Assembly (NCBI GenBank): GCA_016188985.1
Contig: JACPGM010000047.1
Span: 1-40,209 of the forward strand
From: Lentisphaerota bacterium
Lineage (GTDB): Bacteria; Verrucomicrobiota; Kiritimatiellia; JAAZAB01
Direction: 5' to 3'
Length of the DNA stretch: 40,209 nucleotides
The position numbers and the translations under genes are program-made. Under the pieces are notes generated by a model. The model made no database searches and was not told the DNA's origin. It was given only the letters and a program-made list of their open reading frames with translations. Below are positions 8,112 to 27,253 of the stretch, piece by piece (position 1 is the stretch's first letter; each line of letters opens with the position of its first letter).

Positions 8112-8531
8112 TTACCCCACGTGGTACGGACTGGGACCAAGCGCTTTGACCTGCTCGGTCATTGTTTGCATCACCGCGGCAAACTTCGCGCCCTCCGAGG
8201 CCGAGACCCACTCCAGCCGGAAGCGCTCTTGTTCCAGACCGAAATCTTCCAGCATGAGCTTAATGGCCTCCGCGCGTTTCTCGGCCTTCAGGTTGCCTTC
8301 CAGATAATGGCAATCGCCCTTGTGGCAGCCGCAGATCACCACGCCATCCGCCCCTTTGGTGAGCGCATCCATGACCAGATTGGGATGCACCATCCCGGAA
8401 CACATCACCCGGATAATGCGCACATTGGGCGGATAGCGCAGGCGCGAGGTGCCCGCCAAATCCGCGCCGGTGTACGAGCACCAGTGGCAGCAGAACGCAA
8501 TGATTAAAGGCTCATATCCGTTTGTGCTCAT
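8112..8531 (-). CDS. mvhD: Hydrogenase-Hdr linker iron-sulfur protein MvhD
   Basis: The ATG at 8531 overlaps the hdrA stop in ATGA, which fixes the start and gives 139 residues. The protein has the MvhD cysteine pattern: FCCHWCSYTGAD near the start, VRIIRVMCSGMVHP, and VVICGCHKGDCHYLEGN. MvhD holds a [2Fe-2S] cluster and carries electrons from the MvhAG hydrogenase to HdrA. The tight coupling to hdrA supports formation of one MvhADG-HdrABC complex. Confidence 0.95.
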   Translation of the reverse strand: MSTNGYEPLIIAFCCHWCSYTGADLAGTSRLRYPPNVRIIRVMCSGMVHPNLVMDALTKGADGVVICGCHKGDCHYLEGNLKAEKRAEAIKLMLEDFGLEQERFRLEWVSASEGAKFAAVMQTMTEQVKALGPSPYHVG

Positions 8532-11500
8532 GCCGTTGCTCCCGTCAGCGCGGCATCCACCATGGCGCCGATCTGCTCGAGTTTGAAGCCCCGCACAAAG
8601 ATGCCTTTCTTGGGACAAGTCGCCATGCAGACACCGCAGCCCTTGCAGAGCGCCAGATCGCGGTCCACGGTCTTCTTAATGCTGCCGTTCCTTGCGTATT
8701 CAATCAAAGTCAGCGCATGATATGGGCAAGGATCAACGCAGTAGGCGCAGCCGTCGCAATTTTCATCAAGCACCATAGAGACAATTGCATCGAGCTCAAT
8801 TTTATCCTTGGCAATGATTGTGACGGCGCGCGAGGCCGCGGCGCAAGCCTGGTTGATGCTTTCTTCAACCAGTTTGGGCGAATGCGCCAGCCCACAGAGA
8901 AAAATGCCGTCGGTCGCGAAATCCACCGGCCTCAATTTCATATGCGCTTCCATGAAGAATTTGTCTTGGTTCAGAGGCACCTTCAACTTCTTGGCTAAAT
9001 CATCGTTGGCCGGCGCCGGAACGGTTCCCGCGGAAAGCACTACTAAATCGGCAGCGATAGACACTCTCTGTTTGAGAATAGGATCTTCCAGAGAAACTCT
9101 TAAGTGGCCGTTAGTCCTTGCCACCTCCGGCTTGTTAGTATCCTCATAACGGATAAACACCACGCCGGCCTCGCGCGCCTTGCGGTAGTATTCCTCGCGG
9201 AAGCCGTAGGAGCGCATATCGCGATAGAGGACATACACCGAGGCCTCCGGCTTAAGCTGCTTGAATTTCAAGGCATTCTTTATGGCAACCGAACAGCAGA
9301 TACGACTACAGTAAGGATGGTCCTTATCGCGCGAGCCAACACACTGGATCATTACAACCGAATTAACCCCGGTTACATCAGGATCGGAAACGGCGGCTGC
9401 TTCTTTTTGGCTGTCACCCTGAGCAGACCCCGAAGCAAATTGACTTGCAATCTTTTCCTCAAACTGGACCTGGGTAATCACCATTGGGTCTTGGCCGTAG
9501 AGGTATTCTTTCGGCTTATACTCCTCGGCGCCGGTTGCAACGATGATCACGCCGTGTTTAACCACCGCCTCCCGCCCGACTTGCGCGGAACGAGCTTCGC
9601 CCGAAGCAGGGGCCGCCCCGTCTTGCATAACCAGAGTGGTCTTAAAATTGCCCATTGAACCCTCAACTACACGCACCTCGGTTGTGGTATAAACTTTTAT
9701 CTTTTGATGAGTTGCAACTTTATCAATAAGGCGGTTTAACTCTTTCTGCGGGTCGGAACCTTCTTCCAGCAGGTATTTCAGATGTTTCATATTGCCGCCC
9801 AGTTCCGCCGCGCGCTCAACCAGATGAACGGCGAATCCCTGGTTGGCCAGTTCCAGGGCAGCGGTCATACCGGAAAGCCCGGCGCCAATTACGAGGGCAG
9901 CGTTCTGAACCTCTAAGAAACGGTTCTGGAGCGGTTCCAATAAGCGCGCCTTGGCTACTGCCATGCGGACTAAATCCTTGGCCTTCCTCGTGGCCTTTTC
10001 CGGCTCAAGCATATGCACCCAGGTATTCTGGTCGCGGATATTGGCCATTTCAAACAGGTACGGATTTAGCCCTGCTTCTCTGCATGTATTACGGAATAAC
10101 GATTCGTGTGTGCGCGGCGTGCAGGAGGCAACCACCACCCGGTTCAGGTCGTGCTTCTTGATCATCTCCTTAATCTTCTTCTGGGTATCCGATGAACAGG
10201 TGTAAAGATTGTCCTCGGCATAAACGACATCCGGCAGGCTCTGGGCATAATCGCGGATAGAGGGCACATCGGCCACGCCGCCGATATTCTTGCCGCAGTG
10301 ACATACGAATACGCCAATACGCGGGTTCTGACCATTGATACCCTTTTCCGGCGGGTATTCGCGGCTGGTAACCAACGTGCCTCTGGCTTCGGCCAGGAGC
10401 GTCATCGCCCTGGAAGCCGCGCCGGAGGCCTCCATCACTGTCTCCGGAATGTCCTTTGGCGCCACAAACGGTCCGCAGGCAAAAATGCCCGGCTGCGATG
10501 TCTCAACCGGCGTGAACTGGCCGGTCTTGCAGAAGTTGTGCTGGTTAAGCTCCACGTCGCAAATCCGGGCAAGTTGTTGCACGTCTTCCGGCGGGGCCAG
10601 GCCGGCCGATAGCACCACCATGTCAAACTCCGCCACCTGCCGCTGCTGGTCTTCATCGTAATAAACCAGCTCCAGGTTTCTGGTTTGCGGAACTTCTTTT
10701 ATGCTCGAAGGCCGGCACCGGGTGTACTTGACGCCCAATTCCTTGGCACGTTCATAGTAGGCCTCAAAACCCTTGCCGAAAGCGCGGATATCAATATAGA
10801 AAATATGGCATTCCAGATCCGGCTGATGCTCTTTGGCAATGATGGCTTCTTTGGTCGCATACATGCAGCAGACCGATGAGCAATAATTATGCTCCATCTC
10901 GCGCGAGCCGACACACTGGATAAAGGCAATCTTGTGGGGATGCTTGGCATCGGCCGGCCTCAGGATTTGGCCCTGATACGGGCCGCTGGCCGACATAATC
11001 CGTTCAAACTGGAGCGACGACACCACATTGGGATAGCGCCCGAACCCGAATTCCTGTTTGCGATTGGAATCAAACAGTTCAAAGCCCGGCGCGAGAATAA
11101 GCGCGCCCACATCAAGCGTTTGTTTCTCTTCAGCGGGCATATCATGGTTAATTGCCTTGGCCTCGCAGGCCGCCGCACAGAGCAGGCACTCACAGCAGAC
11201 TGCGCAGGAAAGACAGCGGCTTGCCTCTGCCTTGGCCTGCTCCTCGGTGTAACCGAGCTCCACCTCGCGGAAATTGCCCTTCCTCTGTTCTACCGGCAGG
11301 GTCGGCATTTTGACCCGCGCTTTCTTTTCTACGCCTTCAGTTTCTTTCTTTACCTCATCACGTACTGGTTCTTCCCGACCGACTTTTCCACCGGAGGCGG
11401 ATCCGCCTTTGGCGGAAAGATCCTGACCGCTCAGATAGCGGTCAATAGATTCAGCGGCTCGGCGACCGGCCACAATCGCTTCTATAGCTGTCGAAGGCCC

Positions 11501-13177
11501 GGAAACCGCATCGCCTCCGCAGAAAATTCCGGGGACGGACGTCTCCAGAGTTATACTATCAACCTCGACTAAGCCCCGCCGGTTGATCTTGATAGACTTG
11601 TCCGCCGAAGCCTCAGCGAAAGCGGCAGTTTTATCAAGGTTCGGCTGATTGCGTAGCGGAGTGGTATCCGGCTGTTGGCTGATTGCCGGGACAATAATAT
11701 CTACAGGAACGGTAAATTCAGAATCCTTGAGCGGGACTGGCCTGCGCCGGCCGGATGCATCCGGTTCGCCGAGTTCCATCTTGACACATTCCAAACCGGT
11801 CACCGCGCCCTTCCGGCCTAACACCCCGGTTGGCGCAGTTAGATAAGTAATCCTGATGCCTTCCTTTAAAGCCTCTTCAATTTCATTGGGGTTGGCCGGC
11901 ATTTCTTTGTGACTGCGGCGATAAATGATGGTAACTTCTGACGCCCCAAGCCGCCAAGCGCTGCGGGCCACATCCATCGCCACGTTACCGCCGCCGATTA
12001 CAGCCACCTTCTTACCCTTGACCTCCGGCGGGTTGCCGAGATTAAGGTCTTTCAAGAATGTGACCGCATCAATAACGCCGGCATATTCCTGCTCGCCGGA
12101 AATATCAAGTTTCAGCCCCTGCCAGGCGCCAATCGCCAAAAAGATCGCTTTGTAGCCCTGCTTCCTTAAACCATCCAACGTTAAATCCCGGCCCAGGGCG
12201 GAATTGAGCCTGAGTTCTACACCGAGATCAAGGACCGCCGCCCGAATCTCATTTTGTAATATCTCTTTAGGCAGGCGATAGTCCGGGATGCCGTATCTGA
12301 GCATCCCGCCGACATCCGGTTGCGACTCAAAGATGACAACCTGATATCCTTTGAGCGCCAACTCCCGTGCGGCCATTAGACCGGCCGGGCCGGCGCCAAT
12401 GATAGCGACTTTCTCGTCATGCTTCGCAATCTGTTGAACCTGCGGCTTTTTGTCGGGATTGGCCAATTCCCAATCTGAAAGAAATCGCTTAAGCGCCGCA
12501 ATGGAGATGGGCTCATCAAGTTCGTTACGGGTACATTCAGCCTCGCAAGGATGCAGACAAATCCGTCCGCAGATGGACGGAAATGGATTCTGACGGCGCT
12601 CAACCTCAAGCGCTTCGGCATACCGGCCTTGCGCAATCAGGGCAACATAAGCATGCGCATTAACCCCAGCCGGACAGGCAAACCGGCAGGGACTGACGCC
12701 CTGTTTGTCTATGGCAAACGCGCCGGGAACCGCCTGGGGGTAACGGCGGTAAATCGCATTGCGTTTGATGAGATCCACGTCAAACTCACTGTCAACCCTC
12801 ACCGGGCACTTAACCACACAGTCTGAACAGCCCGTGCATTTGGATAAATCAATGTAACGGGCGCGTTTTCTAATCGTTACCTTGAAATTGCCCGGCTCGC
12901 CTTCTACCTTCTCTAAATCGGCATTGGTAATTTTCTCTATATTAAAATGACTGCCCACATCAACGATTCTGGGCGCAAGCGTGCACATTGCGCAATCGTT
13001 GGTCGGAAAGGTCTTGTCCAACTGGGCCATTACGCCGCCAATACAGGGGGTCTTGTCTAATAGATAAACCTTGTAGCCGGCCTCGACCAAATCAAGCGAG
13101 GCCTGCATGCCGCCGATGCCGCCGCCTACGACCAGGGCGGCGCCGACTTTTCCGCTAAATTTCTTGTTTGGCGTCAT
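8528..13177 (-). CDS. hdrA: Giant HdrA: tandem HdrA flavoprotein with embedded GltD/NfnB-like NAD(P)H domain
   Basis: From the ATG at 13177 (a TTG seven codons upstream is the alternative) the protein is 1549 residues, roughly twice an ordinary HdrA. In order: a first FAD fold (ALVVGGGIGGMQ, ~14-60) with the HdrA loop NDCAMCTLAPR; a ferredoxin motif CTGCSDCVVKC (~114); a GltD-like unit (~163-580) with cysteines CRFAC, CGRICLHPCEAEC, an FAD fold VAIIGAGPAGLMA and a nucleotide fold VAVIGGGNVAMDVARSA followed by YRRSHKEMPA, the basic pair being typical for NADPH; a cysteine cluster CLSCAVCCECLLCAAAC (~655); an HdrA core with QCVGSRE; the HdrA start VFVCHCGKNIGG (~956); a second FAD fold VIGAGLSGMTAALEL (~1096); another QCVGSRD; and two C-terminal [4Fe-4S] motifs (CDGCAYCVDPC, CKGCGVCMATC). 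It should split electrons between ferredoxin, NAD(P)H and HdrBC. Several repeat-derived peptides sit in linkers. Confidence 0.93.
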   Translation of the reverse strand: MTPNKKFSGKVGAALVVGGGIGGMQASLDLVEAGYKVYLLDKTPCIGGVMAQLDKTFPTNDCAMCTLAPRIVDVGSHFNIEKITNADLEKVEGEPGNFKVTIRKRARYIDLSKCTGCSDCVVKCPVRVDSEFDVDLIKRNAIYRRYPQAVPGAFAIDKQGVSPCRFACPAGVNAHAYVALIAQGRYAEALEVERRQNPFPSICGRICLHPCEAECTRNELDEPISIAALKRFLSDWELANPDKKPQVQQIAKHDEKVAIIGAGPAGLMAARELALKGYQVVIFESQPDVGGMLRYGIPDYRLPKEILQNEIRAAVLDLGVELRLNSALGRDLTLDGLRKQGYKAIFLAIGAWQGLKLDISGEQEYAGVIDAVTFLKDLNLGNPPEVKGKKVAVIGGGNVAMDVARSAWRLGASEVTIIYRRSHKEMPANPNEIEEALKEGIRITYLTAPTGVLGRKGAVTGLECVKMELGEPDASGRRRPVPLKDSEFTVPVDIIVPAISQQPDTTPLRNQPNLDKTAAFAEASADKSIKINRRGLVEVDSITLETSVPGIFCGGDAVSGPSTAIEAIVAGRRAAESIDRYLSGQDLSAKGGSASGGKVGREEPVRDEVKKETEGVEKKARVKMPTLPVEQRKGNFREVELGYTEEQAKAEASRCLSCAVCCECLLCAAACEAKAINHDMPAEEKQTLDVGALILAPGFELFDSNRKQEFGFGRYPNVVSSLQFERIMSASGPYQGQILRPADAKHPHKIAFIQCVGSREMEHNYCSSVCCMYATKEAIIAKEHQPDLECHIFYIDIRAFGKGFEAYYERAKELGVKYTRCRPSSIKEVPQTRNLELVYYDEDQQRQVAEFDMVVLSAGLAPPEDVQQLARICDVELNQHNFCKTGQFTPVETSQPGIFACGPFVAPKDIPETVMEASGAASRAMTLLAEARGTLVTSREYPPEKGINGQNPRIGVFVCHCGKNIGGVADVPSIRDYAQSLPDVVYAEDNLYTCSSDTQKKIKEMIKKHDLNRVVVASCTPRTHESLFRNTCREAGLNPYLFEMANIRDQNTWVHMLEPEKATRKAKDLVRMAVAKARLLEPLQNRFLEVQNAALVIGAGLSGMTAALELANQGFAVHLVERAAELGGNMKHLKYLLEEGSDPQKELNRLIDKVATHQKIKVYTTTEVRVVEGSMGNFKTTLVMQDGAAPASGEARSAQVGREAVVKHGVIIVATGAEEYKPKEYLYGQDPMVITQVQFEEKIASQFASGSAQGDSQKEAAAVSDPDVTGVNSVVMIQCVGSRDKDHPYCSRICCSVAIKNALKFKQLKPEASVYVLYRDMRSYGFREEYYRKAREAGVVFIRYEDTNKPEVARTNGHLRVSLEDPILKQRVSIAADLVVLSAGTVPAPANDDLAKKLKVPLNQDKFFMEAHMKLRPVDFATDGIFLCGLAHSPKLVEESINQACAAASRAVTIIAKDKIELDAIVSMVLDENCDGCAYCVDPCPYHALTLIEYARNGSIKKTVDRDLALCKGCGVCMATCPKKGIFVRGFKLEQIGAMVDAALTGATA
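11386..11417. repeat. GGCGGATCCGCC palindromic repeat inserted in frame in hdrA
   Basis: This copy of the 32-bp palindrome family encodes the peptide LSAKGGSASGGK on the minus strand, in the linker between the GltD-like unit and the next cysteine cluster of HdrA (about residue 588). The reading frame is kept. A second repeat-like stretch at about 11608-11640 encodes AFAEASADK nearby, and a third at 9405-9440 (CACCCTGAGC motif) encodes SGSAQGDSQ. Confidence 0.6.
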
Positions 13178-13300
13178 GATCGCACCTGAACTCCTCAAAC
13201 TGCGGTCTCCACGCGTGTTTCCACGATCTTACTTGCCTCCCGTCCTGCCATTAAAAATGGTTTAACCTTTGCCGTTTTATTTCGGGCGGTTGCCCGGGTT

Positions 13301-19416: not shown

Positions 19417-20634
19417 ATGTGTTACGCCATTCCAGGGAAAGTAGTGGAACTCAACGGACGCCACGCCGTCATTGACTACTTCGGCGAACGCCGCCAGGCC
19501 TATACCGACCTCACCCGCCCCTCTCCGGGCGACTATGTCTATGCCCAGGGCGGGTTCGTAATTCAAACCGTGCCGGCCCAGGAAGCCTTGGCAATTCTGG
19601 CTGACTGGCAGGAACTTTTTTTCCGGCTCCAGCAAACCGATCAAAAATTGGCCCAAAGGAAGCGCACGCTTCATGAGCAGGCCAACGCCGTCCGCCAGCA
19701 ATTTCAGGGCAACTCCTGTTGCGTTCACGGCATTCTGGAGTTCTCCAACTACTGCCGGAATAACTGCCTCTACTGCGGCATCCGCAAGGACAACCGCAAG
19801 TTACAACGCTATCGCATGAGCGAACAAGAAATCCTGCAAGCCGTCGAATACGCCGTTAATCAATTGGGGTTCCGCGCGCTGGTCCTGCAGTCGGGCGAAG
19901 ATTTTTGGTACAGCGAGGCCAAACTCTGCCGGATCGTCAGGGAAATCCGCGCGCGCTTTTCTGTGCTCATTTTTTTGTCGCTGGGCGAGCGGCCGCGCGC
20001 GACCTACCACAAGTTATATGAGGCCGGCGCCCGTGGCGCTTTGATCCGGTTCGAGACCAGCGACGCGGAGCAGTATAAAAAAATCAAGCCGGAATCCACC
20101 CTGGCCGACCGTCTCGGGCTCATCAAAGACCTCCGCGATCTCGGCTATCTGATTATTTCCGGTTTCCTGATGGGCTTGCCGGACCCGACGGCGGGCGTGG
20201 CCCAAAGCGGGCCGCGGGGACAGAACGGCCGGAACGTTCTTGCCGACATCAAGCGGACGGCCGAATCGGGGGCCGAGATGTTTTCGTTCGGGCCGTTCAT
20301 TCCCCACCCGGAAACGCCCTTGGCCGCCGCCCGAGGGCCCCGGCTGGCCACCGTGCTTAACGCCATTGCCCAGGCCCGCTTGATGTATCCGACCGCCAAG
20401 ATTCTGGTAACTACGGCCTTGGAGACTTTGGATCCCGCGCAGGGCGCGCGGGCCGGCCTGATGGCCGGCGCCAATTCCCTGATGATCAATATCACTCCGC
20501 AAAAATACCGCCGCCTTTACGAGATTTATCCTAACCGCGCCGGCGTTGAGGATGACACGCCTAAGCGCATTGACAAGCTGCTCGAATTACTGCATGCCCT
20601 CGGCCGCGCCCCGACCGATATCGGGGTTTCTTAG
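19417..20634 (+). CDS. hydE: HypC-HydE fusion protein
   Basis: This 405-residue protein joins two maturation factors. Residues 1-66 are HypC: MCYAIPGKVVEL with the essential Cys2, HAVIDYFGERRQAY, GDYVYAQGGFVIQ and EALAILADW; the usual HypC histidine in VHAG is replaced by Gln44. From about residue 85 it is HydE: ILEFSNYCRNNCLYCGIR with C113, C117 and C120, then YRMSEQEIL, LVLQSGEDFWY, FLSLGERP, MGLPDPT, FGPFIPHPETPLA, TTALETLDP, and GANSLMINITP. The HydE radical SAM enzyme processes the HydG iron synthon for [FeFe] hydrogenase; HypC carries Fe(CO)(CN)2 to [NiFe] large subunits. Covalent joining suggests the synthon is handed directly to HypC and then to MvhA. An AAGG stands 9 bases before the ATG. 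The first ~35 residues of normal HydE are replaced by HypC. Confidence 0.92.
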   Translation: MCYAIPGKVVELNGRHAVIDYFGERRQAYTDLTRPSPGDYVYAQGGFVIQTVPAQEALAILADWQELFFRLQQTDQKLAQRKRTLHEQANAVRQQFQGNSCCVHGILEFSNYCRNNCLYCGIRKDNRKLQRYRMSEQEILQAVEYAVNQLGFRALVLQSGEDFWYSEAKLCRIVREIRARFSVLIFLSLGERPRATYHKLYEAGARGALIRFETSDAEQYKKIKPESTLADRLGLIKDLRDLGYLIISGFLMGLPDPTAGVAQSGPRGQNGRNVLADIKRTAESGAEMFSFGPFIPHPETPLAAARGPRLATVLNAIAQARLMYPTAKILVTTALETLDPAQGARAGLMAGANSLMINITPQKYRRLYEIYPNRAGVEDDTPKRIDKLLELLHALGRAPTDIGVS

Positions 20635-21915: not shown

Positions 21916-22035
21916 ATAGAAACGGACGGCGCGGACGGAGCCGCGCCCTCCCTGCTGATGAATTGCTTGGAGGGCGGACCTCCGTGTCCGCCGCGCTTGG
22001 AAGCATTATTACCCACTACGAATCGAAAGAACCAC

Positions 22036-22935
22036 ATGAGCAATAAATCCTTTGAGCTGCGGCTGAACGACGTGCGCGGGGTAATGCTCAATAGCCTGCG
22101 CCCTACAGCGCTTGGAGCGCTGAGCGCGGAGCTGCGGGGGGTCTTAAGCGCCGGCAAAATGTTGCGCGCGCGCCTGATTCTGCGTCTGGGCCCGGCCACT
22201 GGCCTGAACGCCGGCACGCAGGTCCTCACCGCCGCGGCCGTCGAAATGATCCATGCCGCCAGCCTGCTGCACGATGATGTCATTGACGGCTCCGAACTGC
22301 GGCGCGGGGCGCCGTCCTTTTGGATAACGCGCGGCGTCTCGGGCGCCATCCTCCTGGGCGACTTGCTGGTCTGTCGCACTTTCCGGGAGCTCAATGCCAA
22401 CTGCCCCCAACTGGTCAGCCCCCTGTTGCGCTTCATGGAAGAAATGTGCGACGCCGAAACCGAACAGGAATTGCTGCTGCGCAACACCGCGCCGGACTGG
22501 CCCAAATGCGTAAACCTGGCCCGGCGCAAGACCGGCTCGCTCTTTGCCTTCGCCGGCTATGCCTGCGGCCAGAACGACGCTGAGCTTTGCGAAGCGCTTC
22601 AGGAAGCCGGCTATGTCATCGGCACCGCCTATCAGTTAGCGGATGATGTTTTAGACGCCACCGGCGACCCCGCGGCGGCCGATAAAACATTGGGCACCGA
22701 TGCGCTGAACGGCAAATTGACCGCGGTCTCCGCCTGGGCCGGACCGAGCTCGGCCAGGGAAACGCGCCCGGCCAACCTGGGCCGTTATGTGGGCCAACTG
22801 TGCGCCGGCACCGGAAAGACGTTAAGGCCGTGGCCAACGGTTGAGGAAGCCTGGAACGAATATATGGCGCTGGACATGTTGCCGGCGATAGCTGCCATGA
22901 CCGAACTGCTCCCGGCCGCGGAGGCCGTAAAGTGA
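22036..22935 (+). CDS. Polyprenyl diphosphate synthase (trans-isoprenyl)
   Basis: The start is taken at the ATG at 22036 since the 26 upstream codons are repeat-like sequence. The 299-residue protein has the GKMLRARL substrate motif (about 40), the first aspartate-rich motif LLHDDVID (D80, D81, D84) followed by GSELRRGAPSFW, and the second, YQLADDVLDATGD (about 203-207). Both motifs are complete, so it should elongate allylic diphosphates with IPP. Residues just before the first motif (MIHAASLL) have no bulky block, which points to a long-chain product such as those used for quinone tails. At 299 residues it is a little short. The likely client is the UbiA-type prenyltransferase at 26372. IPP would come from the MEP pathway (ispF at 28619). 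Confidence 0.88.
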   Translation: MSNKSFELRLNDVRGVMLNSLRPTALGALSAELRGVLSAGKMLRARLILRLGPATGLNAGTQVLTAAAVEMIHAASLLHDDVIDGSELRRGAPSFWITRGVSGAILLGDLLVCRTFRELNANCPQLVSPLLRFMEEMCDAETEQELLLRNTAPDWPKCVNLARRKTGSLFAFAGYACGQNDAELCEALQEAGYVIGTAYQLADDVLDATGDPAAADKTLGTDALNGKLTAVSAWAGPSSARETRPANLGRYVGQLCAGTGKTLRPWPTVEEAWNEYMALDMLPAIAAMTELLPAAEAVK

Positions 22936-23034: not shown

Positions 23035-24501
23035 ATGAGCACGCTTGAATTGACCCCACCCGCTAAGTCCGCGCCAGAGCAACCCTTGCAAGCGGGCGGG
23101 CCTGCCCGCAATGCTTCCCGATTCTATCGGGATGCGGGCGGGTTCGACGCCGCCGTTTTCGTGAATAACGCCAAGTGGTTCATTCGCATCCGCTGGCTGG
23201 CGGTAGGCGTGCTGGCGCTCACGGGAGTTCTGGGCACTCTGTTTCCCGCTACCATCACGGAGCTTGGTTTCGTGCCGCCCATCCGATGGCCCTGGGCCTT
23301 GGCCGTAATCCTGGCCGGAGCCAATTTATGTTTCTGGATCCTGGCGCGAAAACTAAATGAAGCTGCGGAACTGCGCCTGGCCGAAAACAACATCTGGCTG
23401 CAGATCCTGGTAGACCTGGCGATTGTCACCCTTCTGGTTCATATCGTCGGCAGCACTACAACTTTCATCTCTTTCATTTACCTGCTGCACGTCGTGCTGG
23501 CCTGCGTCTTCTTTTCCATCCGGCAAAGCCTGCTGGTTACCATGCTGGCGGCGAATGCTTATCTGTTGTGCGTGGTCCTGGAATTGACCGGCGTCTGGCC
23601 AGCCGGCGGCGTTCTCCTGCACGCCGAATATCCCCATGCGCCGATCATGCTGGATATTGCCTTTGCCGCCTCGGCGGTGTTTATCTGGCTGGTCGTCTGG
23701 TATCTCGTTTCGCACCTGGCCGAAACCCTGCGCCGGCGCGATCGGCAACTCAGCCTGGCCAATGCAGCGCTTAAGGCTGCTGACCAGGAAAAAAACCTTC
23801 AGGTACTGCGCACCACCCACGACCTCAAGGCGCCGTTTTCCGGAATTGAAAGCAACATCCATATACTAAGATTCCAGCACTGGGACGCGCTGCCGCCGGC
23901 GGCTCGCGCCATCCTGGAGAACATCGAAACCCGCGCCCAGGTCTTGCGCGAACGTATTCGCGATATTTTCATTCTGGGCGAACTGCGCTCCCAGGCGCCC
24001 GGCGCCGACTCCGATAGCCAAACCGACCTGCAGGCCGTCATCAAGACAGTGATTGAAGACTTGGCCGATAAAGCGCAGAGCCGCACGATCGAGTTGCGCG
24101 TTGCCGTGCCGGCCATTGCCGTCAAGGTCAGTCCCAAACCACTAACCATGCTTTTTGCCAATGTGATTGCCAACGCCATTATTTACTCCCACCCCGGCGG
24201 CGAGGTCGAGGTCTCCGCCCAAGATGACGCCGCGGCCGTCACGGTTCAAGTCCGCGACCACGGCATTGGCATCCGCGACGAGGAACTGCCCCATATTTTC
24301 GAGGAGTATTACCGGACCAGGGAAGCCGCCGAGTTTAACAGCCTGTCCACCGGCTTAGGCCTGGCTATCGTCAAGGAAATAGCGCAAAAATGGGACCTTA
24401 CTTTGCGCGTTGAGAGCAGCTTAGGTCAGGGCACCATCTTCGCCGTGGTCTTGCCGCGCGCGAGTGCAACCACGGCCCAGGAGCTTAACAGTCGCGCGTA
24501 A
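23035..24501 (+). CDS. Six-helix membrane sensor histidine kinase (RegB-like layout)
   Basis: The 488-residue protein has six hydrophobic helices (about 48-70, 86-104, 120-137, 143-162, 166-185 and 204-228), then a short coiled linker and a kinase module. The H-box is TTHDLKAPFSGI with H262, the N-box NVIANAIIYS, the G1 box DHGIGIRDEE, and the G2 box STGLGLAIVKEIA. Six helices followed directly by the kinase resemble RegB/PrrB, which senses the quinone pool, but the GGxxNPF quinone motif appears only as GSTTTF. Location among prenyl and quinone-like genes fits a redox or quinone sensor. No response regulator is adjacent; the free receiver at 2713 is one candidate. Residues about 20-36 are encoded by a palindromic repeat, so the start may truly be the GTG at 23161. 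Confidence 0.85.
   Translation: MSTLELTPPAKSAPEQPLQAGGPARNASRFYRDAGGFDAAVFVNNAKWFIRIRWLAVGVLALTGVLGTLFPATITELGFVPPIRWPWALAVILAGANLCFWILARKLNEAAELRLAENNIWLQILVDLAIVTLLVHIVGSTTTFISFIYLLHVVLACVFFSIRQSLLVTMLAANAYLLCVVLELTGVWPAGGVLLHAEYPHAPIMLDIAFAASAVFIWLVVWYLVSHLAETLRRRDRQLSLANAALKAADQEKNLQVLRTTHDLKAPFSGIESNIHILRFQHWDALPPAARAILENIETRAQVLRERIRDIFILGELRSQAPGADSDSQTDLQAVIKTVIEDLADKAQSRTIELRVAVPAIAVKVSPKPLTMLFANVIANAIIYSHPGGEVEVSAQDDAAAVTVQVRDHGIGIRDEELPHIFEEYYRTREAAEFNSLSTGLGLAIVKEIAQKWDLTLRVESSLGQGTIFAVVLPRASATTAQELNSRA
23093..23142. repeat. Palindromic repeat within the start of the sensor kinase gene
   Basis: The stretch CGGGCCTGCCCGCAATGC and its mirrored half GATGCGGGCGGG, with an inner CCCGATTCTATCGGG hairpin (23117-23131), is related to the 36-bp repeat at 7857 and 35919. 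It lies in frame at codons 20-36, in the cytoplasmic leader before the first membrane helix. Confidence 0.65.
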
Positions 24502-24632: not shown

Positions 24633-24779
24633 ATGGCTGCTGCGCAGGAAGTAAAACTGACCAAGAAAAGTCCCGCCAAGGGCGCATGCGGTAAAGAAAC
24701 CAAGCGGAAATGGGAAAAGCCCACCTGGCAGGATGTCTCCGGCGGCGTAATGGCCCAGCCGTATATCCGGTTCACTTGA
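24633..24779 (+). CDS. PqqA-like ribosomal precursor peptide (48 residues)
   Basis: An ATG at 24633 stands 6 bases after a good GGAGG (24622-24626). The first half is lysine-rich and polar with one cysteine (C19). The last 22 residues begin KWEKPTWQDVSGG and end PYIRFT. They line up without gaps with PqqA as I remember it from Klebsiella: W27, K29, P30, D34, G38, Y44 and I45 match, and the C-termini coincide. The glutamate that PqqE links to tyrosine is Met40 here. A Gly-Gly (37-38) could be a leader-cleavage point, leaving ten residues with Tyr44. The next genes encode a PqqD-like recognition protein and a radical SAM enzyme, so a modified peptide is likely. The final product is unknown. Confidence 0.72.
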   Translation: MAAAQEVKLTKKSPAKGACGKETKRKWEKPTWQDVSGGVMAQPYIRFT

Positions 24780-25146
24780 TTTTTAGATCAAGGCGGCTTA
24801 TCCAGCGGCGCACCACAGGCTAAAGCCAGAGAACAGTCCCGCGAGTCTGCCTGAGCGCCCGCAATGCTTCCCGATGCGCTGAACGCGATCGGAATGCAGG
24901 CGTCTCGTCTACCGGCCAGTTTGGAACAGGCAGATCGGTGTAGCGGCCGTTTCCACCACAGGCGGACAAGCGTGAGAACGGTGCCTTGGCGGTTCTAACG
25001 AACCGCACCTACACTCCTGATCGGCGCTCTCTGGCCGACGCTCGGGCAGGCGGGCAGACAGGCAGGCCGCCCAACAACTCACCAATGTCTGCCCGGGCAC
25101 GGCCGGGAAATCGCTTAACTCAGCTTGGCACATGAAAGGACAGCTT
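24780..25146. other. Gap between precursor peptide and PqqD-like gene, filled by repeats
   Basis: No gene or second precursor copy is visible in this 367-base gap. It holds a CGCCCGCAATGCTTCCCGAT hairpin repeat (about 24850-24902), the GGTGTAG element at 24938-25014, and GGCAGGCGGGCAGACAGGCAGG-like direct repeats near 25048-25070. A weak AAGGA at 25137 serves the next gene. Confidence 0.5.
24938..25014. repeat. GGTGTAG...CTACAC mobile repeat, copy 1
   Basis: The ends GGTGTAGCGGCCG (24938-24950) and CGAACCGCACCTACAC (24999-25014) both recur, in the opposite orientation, at 35903-35996, with 12 of 13 and 15 of 16 bases matching. The element is 77 bp here and non-coding. Confidence 0.6.
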
Positions 25147-25416
25147 ATGCAATTTGCCCCGCATGTAAAATGGCGCCGCGAAAAATTCGGCGCTGTGGTT
25201 TTCGACACGCTTAGCGAAAAAATTTACGTAACCAATGCCATCGGCGGCGCCGTCCTCTCCCTCATGGCGCAGGGTCTGGATGCCGCGGCCCTCATCGCGC
25301 GGTTGCAGCAGGATTTCGACGGCGACCCCGCCCAAATCGAAACGGAAGCGGCCGCCTTTCTCCAGGCGCTGCAATCGGCCGGGTTCCTGGCAAAACCGGG
25401 CGGGGGGGCGTCATGA
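25147..25416 (+). CDS. PqqD-family peptide recognition protein (RRE)
   Basis: The ATG at 25147 follows AAGGA; the product is 89 residues. VKWRREKFGAVVFDTLSEKIYVTNAIGGAVLSLM shortened to its features shows two edge strands followed by a helix, and then a second and third helix rich in leucine (ALIARLQQDF, AAAFLQALQSAGFL), the winged-helix pattern of PqqD and related RiPP recognition elements. Such proteins bind the leader of a precursor through its edge strand and bring it to a radical SAM enzyme. Its stop overlaps the radical SAM start in ATGA, so the two are made together. The W-x-K-P motif of the 48-residue peptide is the likely ligand. Confidence 0.88.
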   Translation: MQFAPHVKWRREKFGAVVFDTLSEKIYVTNAIGGAVLSLMAQGLDAAALIARLQQDFDGDPAQIETEAAAFLQALQSAGFLAKPGGGAS

Positions 25417-26375
25417 CACAAGCGCTCGCGACCATTCCCGGAGCATCGGTTGAGCAGTATGAGGCTCCGCTCTTCATCGCCTGGCAGATTAACGCCGAGT
25501 GCAATCTGAACTGCTTCCACTGCTGCGAAGAAGCCGGAATGGCCTTTCCCGATCAGATGAGCAAGGCGCAGATGCTCGATCTGTGCGCGCAGATCGTCAA
25601 GGCCCAGATCCCCTACGTCGCGCTCTCCGGCGGCGAGCCGCTCATCTGCCCGCATTTCTGGGACGTGCTGGAATACCTGCGCAAAAACAATGTCAGCGTC
25701 AAAATCGAAACCAACGGCGAATTTATTGACGAGAAGGTGGCGCGACGCCTGGGCGCCCTCACTCTGCGCTCCGTTCAGATCAGCATGGACGGCGCCACGG
25801 CCAAGAGCCATGAGGCTTTGCGCGAACGCGGCAACTGGCAGAAGGTGATCCGGGCCTGCAAGCTGCTGCGTGACACAAGCGCTAATATCGAGATCGTCTT
25901 CGTGCCCACCCGCTTCAACATCCACGAGGTCGGCGAGGCCGTGGACCTGGCGGCCTCGCTGCAGGCGCATGGCTTTTACACCGGCAAACTCATGCGCATC
26001 GGCCGCGCCGCCCAAAACTGGCAGAAACTATGTCCCTCCGACGACCAATACCGCGAATTCTTTGCCGTGCTGGAGCAGAAAAAGGCGCTCTATTTGGGGC
26101 GCATGAAGGTGTTTAATTATCCCTATGACGTGATTGAAGAATTGCGCTACCGGTTGGAAGCGCCCGCGGCCAGCCTGCTCGTGCTGCCTAACGGCAAGGT
26201 GAAGCTGATCGGACCCCTGCCCTTCATTTGCGGCGACGTGACCGTCATGCCGCTCACCCAGGTCTGGCGCAACTACAAGAAAGCCTGGAAGGATAAGCGC
26301 GTCACCGAGTTTGCCAGCCGCGTCCTCAAGAATCCCGCGCTGGTCGCCGAAGCCAACCGCTGGAGAGAATTGTGA
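25413..26375 (+). CDS. Radical SAM peptide-modifying enzyme (PqqE-like, no clear SPASM clusters)
   Basis: The 320-residue protein has the motif CNLNCFHC (C30, C34, C37) after IAWQINAE, SGGEPLICP for SAM binding, KIETNGE, and VQISMDGATAKSHEALRERGNW, all standard for the PqqE/AlbA/mycofactocin group. The C-terminal region ends FICGDVTVMPLTQVWRNYKKAW and is laid out like a SPASM domain, but has only one cysteine there. Auxiliary clusters are therefore probably lost, unlike PqqE. It should act on the precursor peptide at 24633, delivered by the PqqD-like protein. Possible reactions include a C-C bond, oxidation or decarboxylation at the conserved tyrosine. It overlaps the prenyltransferase gene by GTGA. 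Confidence 0.88.
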   Translation: MTQALATIPGASVEQYEAPLFIAWQINAECNLNCFHCCEEAGMAFPDQMSKAQMLDLCAQIVKAQIPYVALSGGEPLICPHFWDVLEYLRKNNVSVKIETNGEFIDEKVARRLGALTLRSVQISMDGATAKSHEALRERGNWQKVIRACKLLRDTSANIEIVFVPTRFNIHEVGEAVDLAASLQAHGFYTGKLMRIGRAAQNWQKLCPSDDQYREFFAVLEQKKALYLGRMKVFNYPYDVIEELRYRLEAPAASLLVLPNGKVKLIGPLPFICGDVTVMPLTQVWRNYKKAWKDKRVTEFASRVLKNPALVAEANRWREL

Positions 26376-27253
26376 GCGTTGGACTAAGCCTGGCCACCGT
26401 GGCCGGCGCATTGCGCTACCGCTTCTTCCTGGTGGCCGGCATATTTCCTTATCTCCTGGGAGCGGCCGTTGCCGGCCGGGACGGCGCAACCGCGGATTGG
26501 TGGCTGCTGTTTGTGGGATTGGCCGGTGTTCTCGCCGTCAGCGCGGGCATTGAAGGGCTAAACGAATACTTCGACACGCTAATCGGCACCGATCGAGTTT
26601 TTGAATTAGGCCAGCGCCCTAAGGCCCACTGGCCTTTGCCGGTAGGGATCTCAGGTTTTGGCGTTGCCTTCCTGATCGGGATATATCTGACCTGCCTGCG
26701 CGGCTGGCCGATTCTGGCGTTGATGCTCTTTGGCGGGGCGGCGGCCCTCTCGTATCTTTGCCCAGGCGTCCATTTGTCCTACCGCGGCCTGGGCGAAACC
26801 GTAATTACCATCAGCTACGGGTGCGGCTTGACCCTGGGCGGCTACTATCTGCAGGCCGGAGGCTTGAGCTGGAGCTGCGTGTGGGCATCGCTGCTGCCCG
26901 CGTTGCTGATCCTGGCCATGACGCTGGCTAACGAGGTCCCCGATTATCATGGCAGCCAGTTGGTCGGCAAGCGCAATATCGTCGTCCGCCTTGGCCGCCT
27001 GGGCGCGGCATGGGCGTATTGTCTCGTCACGGCCTCAGCCTTTCTCCTGTTGTTAGCCGGACTGCTCAGCGGCATTTATCCCGCGTTGCTGGGCTGGGCT
27101 TTTCTGCTGGCGCCTTTTGCGCTGGTTAACAGCCGAGCGGCCCTGCGCCTTTACGAGGCGCCGGTAAGTTTCTGCCGGGTTATTCGCGGCGCCATGCTCC
27201 AGTATGTTTTAATTACCCTCCTTGCCGCCGTGAGCTACGCCTGGGGCGGCTGA
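26372..27253 (+). CDS. UbiA-superfamily prenyltransferase (MenA-like)
   Basis: A GTG at 26372 overlaps the stop of the radical SAM gene. The 293-residue protein is highly hydrophobic with eight or nine predicted helices. The first prenyl-diphosphate motif is NEYFDTLIGTD (N64, D68, D74), the MenA spacing with Glu in place of the second residue. The second is NEVPDYHGSQLVGKRNIVVRLG abbreviated to N187, D191, K200 and R201, also like MenA. MenA attaches a polyprenyl tail to 1,4-dihydroxy-2-naphthoate. Here no other menaquinone gene is present, and the gene is translationally coupled to peptide-modifying enzymes, so the acceptor may be an aromatic compound derived from the peptide. The polyprenyl donor would be made by the synthase at 22036. 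Confidence 0.88.
   Translation: MSVGLSLATVAGALRYRFFLVAGIFPYLLGAAVAGRDGATADWWLLFVGLAGVLAVSAGIEGLNEYFDTLIGTDRVFELGQRPKAHWPLPVGISGFGVAFLIGIYLTCLRGWPILALMLFGGAAALSYLCPGVHLSYRGLGETVITISYGCGLTLGGYYLQAGGLSWSCVWASLLPALLILAMTLANEVPDYHGSQLVGKRNIVVRLGRLGAAWAYCLVTASAFLLLLAGLLSGIYPALLGWAFLLAPFALVNSRAALRLYEAPVSFCRVIRGAMLQYVLITLLAAVSYAWGG

Follow-up and report, generated by a model that had tools for sequence, protein, structure and literature searches.

A conserved peptide, PqqD, radical SAM and UbiA cassette as a candidate pathway to a respiratory redox carrier

A short peptide encoded in the stretch of DNA analysed here (40,209 nucleotides, hereafter the window) may serve as the precursor of a fat-soluble carrier of respiratory electrons not yet described. 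Its 48-residue open reading frame is real and conserved, and it is followed by genes for a PqqD-family chaperone, a radical SAM enzyme and a UbiA-family prenyltransferase. We consider it somewhat probable that this cassette is a RiPP redox-cofactor pathway resembling those of PQQ and mycofactocin, whose product, probably derived from an invariant tyrosine, is prenylated into a membrane redox carrier. To the broader proposal of a ribosomally encoded respiratory quinone we give an even chance: several phyla would build a membrane electron carrier from a tyrosine of a 40-80-residue peptide by means of radical SAM and UbiA enzymes, in some cases instead of menaquinone or ubiquinone, and with the whole pathway built into an NQR operon. 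An earlier note had compared the peptide with PqqA; it overlooked the invariant nine-residue core, the fact that UbiA is a fixed part of the cassette, and the connection with NQR and further quinone-dependent enzymes.

The precursor peptide and its likeness to PqqA

The genes concerned lie on the forward strand of the window in the following order:

21958..22935, forward strand: polyprenyl diphosphate synthase, whose true start may lie further in (PF00348, E 1.9e-38)
23035..24501, forward strand: membrane sensor histidine kinase (PF02518)
24633..24779, forward strand: precursor peptide gene, 48 residues (translation, and 23 of 23 loci)
25132..25416, forward strand: PqqD-family peptide chaperone/RRE (PF05402, E 2e-11, 44.4 bits against a cut-off of 23.4)
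25413..26375, forward strand: radical SAM peptide maturase carrying CxxxCxxC, its C-terminal region SPASM-like but without the SPASM cysteines (PF04055, E 3e-20)
26372..27253, forward strand: UbiA-family membrane prenyltransferase (PF01040, E 3e-18, 66.5 bits against a cut-off of 34.2)

The peptide gene, whose translation is MAAAQEVKLTKKSPAKGACGKETKRKWEKPTWQDVSGGVMAQPYIRFT followed by a stop, has a GGAGG-like site immediately 5' of it; the sensor kinase gene ends 131 bases before it, and the PqqD gene starts about 350 bases after. The leader motif, Trp27-x-x-Pro30 with Asp34-Val35-Ser36, occupies positions 24711-24740, and the core MAQPYIRFT positions 24750-24776. No Rfam match was obtained in the window, a promoter scan found none, and the 356-base stretch 3' of the peptide gene folds no better than its shuffles (z -0.88).

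The peptide was compared across 23 loci of 22 genomes from several phyla (the window, L008-L025, L027, L028, L035 and L044, with L010 and L017 being two loci of one MAG), after L006, L007, L033, L034, L036 and L040-L043 had been set aside as same-contig duplicates. All 23 share the C-terminal pattern W-x-x-P-x-x-x-DVS-x-x-[VI]-MAQPYIRFT-stop with no change in length, so that the Trp, the Pro, the Asp-Val-Ser and each residue of the core (Met, Ala, Gln, Pro, Tyr, Ile, Arg, Phe, Thr) are invariant, while the codons of the core vary synonymously (six for Arg, four each for Ala and Pro). The search expression demanded QPY near the end, which cost no locus. In a search made independently of the radical SAM gene, the back-translated MAQPYIRFT-stop pattern was found in 3 of 387 genomes of the window's phylum, exactly the three that carry that gene, and the reversed pattern had no match in the same 387. 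The conservation with synonymous codons and this pattern search together rule out a chance open reading frame. It was a signature of this sort, an invariant peptide end with varying codons, that brought Haft to mycofactocin, according to the available text of that paper (PMC3023750).

The proposed gap-free alignment with PqqA stands in part. Against four annotated PqqA, which are genes on plasmid records, mutually related and hence not independent tests, the window peptide has 7, 7, 7 and 6 identities with Trp and Tyr in register. When this peptide was shuffled 5000 times, the observed scores were reached 0, 1, 0 and 7 times, so that chance does not account for the likeness. The spacing between Trp and Tyr is 17 in all 23 cassette peptides and in the four PqqAs. 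The peptide is not, however, a strict PqqA homologue: the Pfam model PF08042 matches three of three real PqqAs but misses the window peptide and all six of the other cassette peptides compared with it. The observation that Met40 replaces the glutamate crosslinked in PqqA extends to every one of the 23 loci, which excludes the Glu-Tyr bond of PqqE at that site, as had been argued; the tyrosine, whose position was said to be kept, is likewise invariant, and its presence beside related radical SAM genes removes the objection by which the idea was to fall. Within the W-x-K-P motif put forward for checking, Trp and Pro hold throughout, but Lys29 is K in just 14 of the 23, and the Gly-Gly at 37-38, suggested as a cleavage site, occurs in a single locus and has to be abandoned.

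We read the part that resembles PqqA as a putative PqqD/RRE recognition leader with PqqA-like spacing. The ten-residue stretch W-x-x-P-x-L-E also resembles the lasso-peptide leader NF033524 of the paeninodin family (E 0.008-0.07 in four of eight peptides, under the cut-off), and W-x-x-P-x-L may for this reason be a general PqqD/RRE recognition motif.

The cassette genes and their distribution

The PqqD, radical SAM and UbiA genes are probably translationally coupled, as the radical SAM start overlaps the PqqD stop (ATGA) and the GTG start of UbiA overlaps the radical SAM stop (GTGA). For PqqD, a start at 25147 is better by alignment than that at 25132. The AlphaFold model of the radical SAM protein (pLDDT 93.6) has the peptide maturases SkfB, SuiB and PqqE as its nearest solved folds. 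The protein scores 64.6 bits with the PqqE equivalog TIGR02109, against a cut-off of 381, and 137.7 bits with the MftC equivalog TIGR03962, its best NCBIfam model, against 265; the SPASM motif CX2CX5CX3C is absent from all 31 aligned radical SAM sequences. PADLOC viperin models match it (E 1.4e-19), as do many radical SAM models, and with RiPP and UbiA genes for neighbours a viperin-type defence function was rejected. For the UbiA protein the nearest PDB entry is UBIAD1, both by sequence (E 5.8e-15) and by fold (model pLDDT 85.7), and both Asp-rich motifs are present in 18 of 18 aligned sequences. UBIAD1 is a menaquinone-4 synthase. MenA models give the best scores, yet stay under cut-off (at most 87 bits with the MenA equivalog, against 264), and the protein resembles the UBIAD1/MenA type more than the 4-hydroxybenzoate UbiA.

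The order peptide-PqqD-radical SAM-UbiA is found in 13 non-proteobacterial loci (L008-L019 and L027) and, by listing of open reading frames, in L035 and L044, while six proteobacterial loci (L020-L025) have PqqD-radical SAM-UbiA-radical SAM-peptide-radical SAM. The three radical SAM proteins of the latter form three separate clades in the radical SAM tree, which left out the middle one of L023 and in which the proteobacterial row L025:11232-12098, as in the alignment, was entered with a late start and without CxxxCxxC. BLAST with the window proteins and the open reading frame listings place PqqD in 22 of the 23 peptide loci and UbiA in as many (split into two frames in L012), both being absent from L028. 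UbiA is also absent from five distant radical SAM loci, which likewise have neither peptide nor PqqD. Among the loci compared, neither a peptidase nor a hydroxylase constantly accompanies these genes. A polyprenyl synthase adjoins the cassette in L010, L011, L016, L017, L035 (partial) and G292; in the window the kinase gene sits between the two, and the synthase there is closest to those of the G292 and G397 NQR operons (37-39% identity). The kinase, a probable regulator, shares 38.6% identity over 471 residues with the NQR-adjacent kinase of G397, and its relatives adjoin UbiA in L016 and NQR genes in G397 and G405.

Two loci depart from these arrangements. In a Burkholderiales contig (L028:10007-11106), an intact peptide gene lies next to Sdh/Frd genes with radical SAM fragments only and without UbiA or PqqD, perhaps a decaying or rearranged cassette. 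A sister order, radical SAM-PqqD-small open reading frame-UbiA, was seen once, beside metal-efflux-like genes (L045:8643-11101, in G425); its small frame, of 59 residues and with a ribosome-site-like stretch, ends in KKDGNYIVSTLF, a different core that again has Tyr-Ile near the C-terminus.

Clear radical SAM orthologues occur in two other genomes among 387 of the window's phylum, and nine other sampled genomes of the same genus or family gave no match over E 1e-25. The phylum of G398, sampled with 384 genomes, has clear orthologues in five, with one distant gene and one partial gene besides, the latter at a contig end in G536. Among 369 genomes of the class of G407, the centre genome alone has the gene. 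A scan of genome contigs returned 25 loci, of which 20 hold orthologues (fragments only in L028) and five distant radical SAM genes. The carrier records are labelled Lentisphaerae, Planctomycetota, Omnitrophota, Bacillota and Proteobacteria, and include the cultured Rhodovibrio sodomensis (DSM 9895) and Rhodothalassium salexigens (DSM 2132). Viral contigs yielded no relatives, and plasmids MftC-like and other radical SAM proteins only, under 37% identity. With close relatives lacking the cassette and a radical SAM tree that mixes phyla, the patchy presence probably reflects horizontal movement.

Respiratory neighbours and quinone genes of the carriers

Two carriers have the cassette and NQR genes together. 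In L010, genes for RnfC/NqrA-like, NqrB/RnfD, RnfG/NqrC, NqrD, NqrE/RnfA and NqrF proteins are followed directly by the peptide gene, 34 bases separating the nqrF stop from the peptide start codon (NqrF, TIGR01941, 311 bits against a cut-off of 295). In G292, contig C16 carries polyprenyl synthase-nqrA-B-C-D-E-peptide and contig C250 PqqD-radical SAM-UbiA-nqrF, and the last 99 bases of C16, within and after the peptide gene, are the start of C250. From this overlap we infer that the cassette lies inside a Na+-NQR operon in the order polyprenyl synthase, nqrA-E, peptide, PqqD, radical SAM, UbiA, nqrF. Elsewhere, G397 has polyprenyl synthase, nqr genes and a window-like kinase together, and G404 and G405 have NQR-type operons with nqrF, in each case on contigs other than that of the cassette. 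NqrF-type operons were thus seen in 5 of 13 non-proteobacterial carriers, or five of the eight with an NqrB/RnfD match, the remaining three (G399, G402 and G406) having ordinary Rnf only. Three hybrid RNF/NQR operons (L010:3990-9466, L048:3012-8501 and L060:1953-7107) pair NqrF with a first subunit of the RnfC type, which exceeds the RnfC cut-off in L010 and L048; RnfB was not seen in any of the three.

Other loci have different respiratory neighbours: complex I genes in L013 and also, on the basis of gene clustering, in L015; succinate dehydrogenase/fumarate reductase genes in L028; NapC/NirT, the decaheme DmsE and MtrB/PioB in L021; and MtrB in L024 and L025. The gene lists of L008, L014, L020, L022, L023, L027 and L044 hold no clear respiratory neighbour, and searches of the window's own genome gave no NqrB/RnfD and no CydA, only two NrfD matches.

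Most carriers have no known menaquinone pathway. In a survey of 19 carrier genomes (13 non-proteobacterial and 6 proteobacterial, the genome of L020 being left out), MqnA/MqnD were found in one (G397) and MenD over cut-off in none; these are mostly incomplete MAGs, drafts of unequal completeness, so such absences weigh little. Weak MenD matches of 42-75 bits, against a cut-off of 244, occur in 15 of the 19, and in the control set all 14 match but only seven reach the cut-off. The cassette UbiA is the sole UbiA-family gene in G095, G401, G403 and G404. The first of these, 95% complete, encodes CydA (514 bits) of cytochrome bd, and L013 and L015, with their complex I genes, belong to G401 and G403. 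Cytochrome bd oxidase is a quinol oxidase; bacteria with CydA and without quinone genes can live on scavenged quinones. The proteobacterial carriers have strong extra UbiA matches and for that reason probably make ubiquinone as well.

Proposed pathway, alternatives and relation to known systems

In the pathway that we propose, PqqD would hold the leader at Trp-x-x-Pro-x-Leu/Met-x-Asp-Val-Ser, and the core MAQPYIRFT would undergo oxidative modification by the radical SAM enzyme, the single tyrosine of the core being the most likely target. UbiA would then add to the aromatic ring derived from this tyrosine a polyprenyl tail made by the accompanying polyprenyl synthase, and a peptidase encoded outside the cassette would trim the peptide. 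The pathway would end in a quinone-like molecule that dissolves in the membrane and carries electrons, its likely partners being Na+-NQR (or an RNF/NQR hybrid), complex I, cytochrome bd and NapC/MtrAB-type enzymes. UbiA enzymes also act on non-quinone substrates. The invariance of the peptide, the fixed presence of UbiA and the NQR operons speak for a cofactor rather than an antibiotic or signal.

We regard it as unlikely that the prenylated peptide, or a large part of its nine-residue core, instead belongs permanently to an electron-transfer complex, as a lipid-anchored prosthetic group or small subunit, and is not a diffusible quinone. Such a role would account for the invariance of all nine core residues, which is more than a product made from tyrosine only needs, and for peptide genes inside or abutting an NQR operon, but the cassette also occurs in genomes without an NqrB/RnfD match (for example G000, G095, G401 and G403) and beside complex I, Mtr or Sdh genes. 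In mycofactocin, moreover, a long invariant stretch can be trimmed away.

That the cassette supplies the aromatic ring of a conventional quinone, the peptide tyrosine yielding a 4-hydroxybenzoate-like acceptor for ubiquinone-type synthesis, seems quite unlikely. UbiA belongs to the cassette, and a survey of Omnitrophota, in its available text, describes a polyprenyltransferase step with no chorismate-pyruvate lyase and suggests another 4-hydroxybenzoate source (PMC10066038). The five clear orthologues in 384 sampled genomes, however, make the cassette too rare to explain the general pattern of that phylum, and its UbiA is nearer the UBIAD1/MenA type.

It is very unlikely that UbiA is an ordinary MenA merely travelling with a PQQ-like cassette whose product stays unprenylated: although MenA models score best, the near-absence of MenD and MqnA/D from the surveyed carriers, and the presence of UbiA in nearly every peptide locus but in none of the five distant peptide-less ones, count against it. 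A prenylated peptide antibiotic or signal, as the RiPP logic and the lasso-like leader (under cut-off) might suggest, is highly improbable given a core without diversification across phyla, respiratory neighbours that recur and, in the 27 cross-locus gene clusters listed and judged from sequences, no obvious recurrence of genes for a transporter, immunity or a peptidase.

Read as a redox-cofactor pathway, the cassette shares with PQQ biosynthesis (PqqA/PqqD/PqqE) a short precursor, a PqqD-family chaperone, a radical SAM maturase and the Trp-Tyr spacing. It differs in the Met for Glu, in the lack of a PqqA model match, in a radical SAM protein far below the PqqE cut-off and without SPASM cysteines, and in the addition of UbiA, and neither PqqB nor PqqC is found among the annotated window neighbours. 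With mycofactocin (MftA/B/C) it has in common an invariant C-terminus containing Tyr, codon-level variation and a radical SAM protein best matched by the MftC model, but the core is another one and, among the same neighbours, a prenyltransferase stands in place of the remaining mycofactocin genes. Like the isoprenoid quinone pathways (MenA, UbiA, UBIAD1, methyl-plastoquinone), it combines a UbiA-type prenyltransferase and a polyprenyl synthase near respiratory genes; here, in contrast, the acceptor apparently comes from a ribosomal peptide, MenD/Mqn are missing in nearly all carriers, and the system is known from genes alone. Lasso-peptide and other RRE systems share the leader stretch, whereas the core is unrelated and no lasso cyclase or protease was seen in the cassette.

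Redox cofactors of RiPP origin are an established class, but as far as we could search no member that involves a prenyltransferase and NQR has been described. In 5.39 million open-licence PMC papers we found no description of MAQPYIRFT, of a PqqD-UbiA-radical SAM cassette, of a peptide-derived quinone or of an NQR-linked RiPP, and the papers that broader queries brought up do not, to judge from titles and the opening of abstracts, deal with a cassette of this sort. Many lineages without a known quinone pathway are described in the available text of a 2026 survey covering 26,264 bacterial genomes, which suggests undiscovered quinones (PMC13386864). In the accessible portion of a 2025 paper on the genome of Rhodothalassium salexigens, quinone comes up a single time, in connection with sulfide:quinone oxidoreductase (PMC11762602). 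The cassette is a concrete, testable candidate for such a quinone and occurs in cultured strains; if the proposal is true, PQQ and mycofactocin would gain a lipid-soluble counterpart, and a respiratory carrier would have been traced to a new kind of origin.

Two further genes of the window are recorded here. At 19417-20634 (forward strand) lies a HydE-like radical SAM protein with a fused N-terminal HypC/HupF domain (PF01455 and TIGR00074 over cut-off; HydE model TIGR03956, 249.2 against 254.6), so that maturation families of [NiFe]- and [FeFe]-hydrogenases are joined in one protein. At 8528-13198 (reverse strand), next to hydrogenase-like genes, a 1556-residue open reading frame contains ferredoxin-like and pyridine-nucleotide oxidoreductase-like stretches and, judged by eye from its translation, is apparently an HdrA-type fusion.
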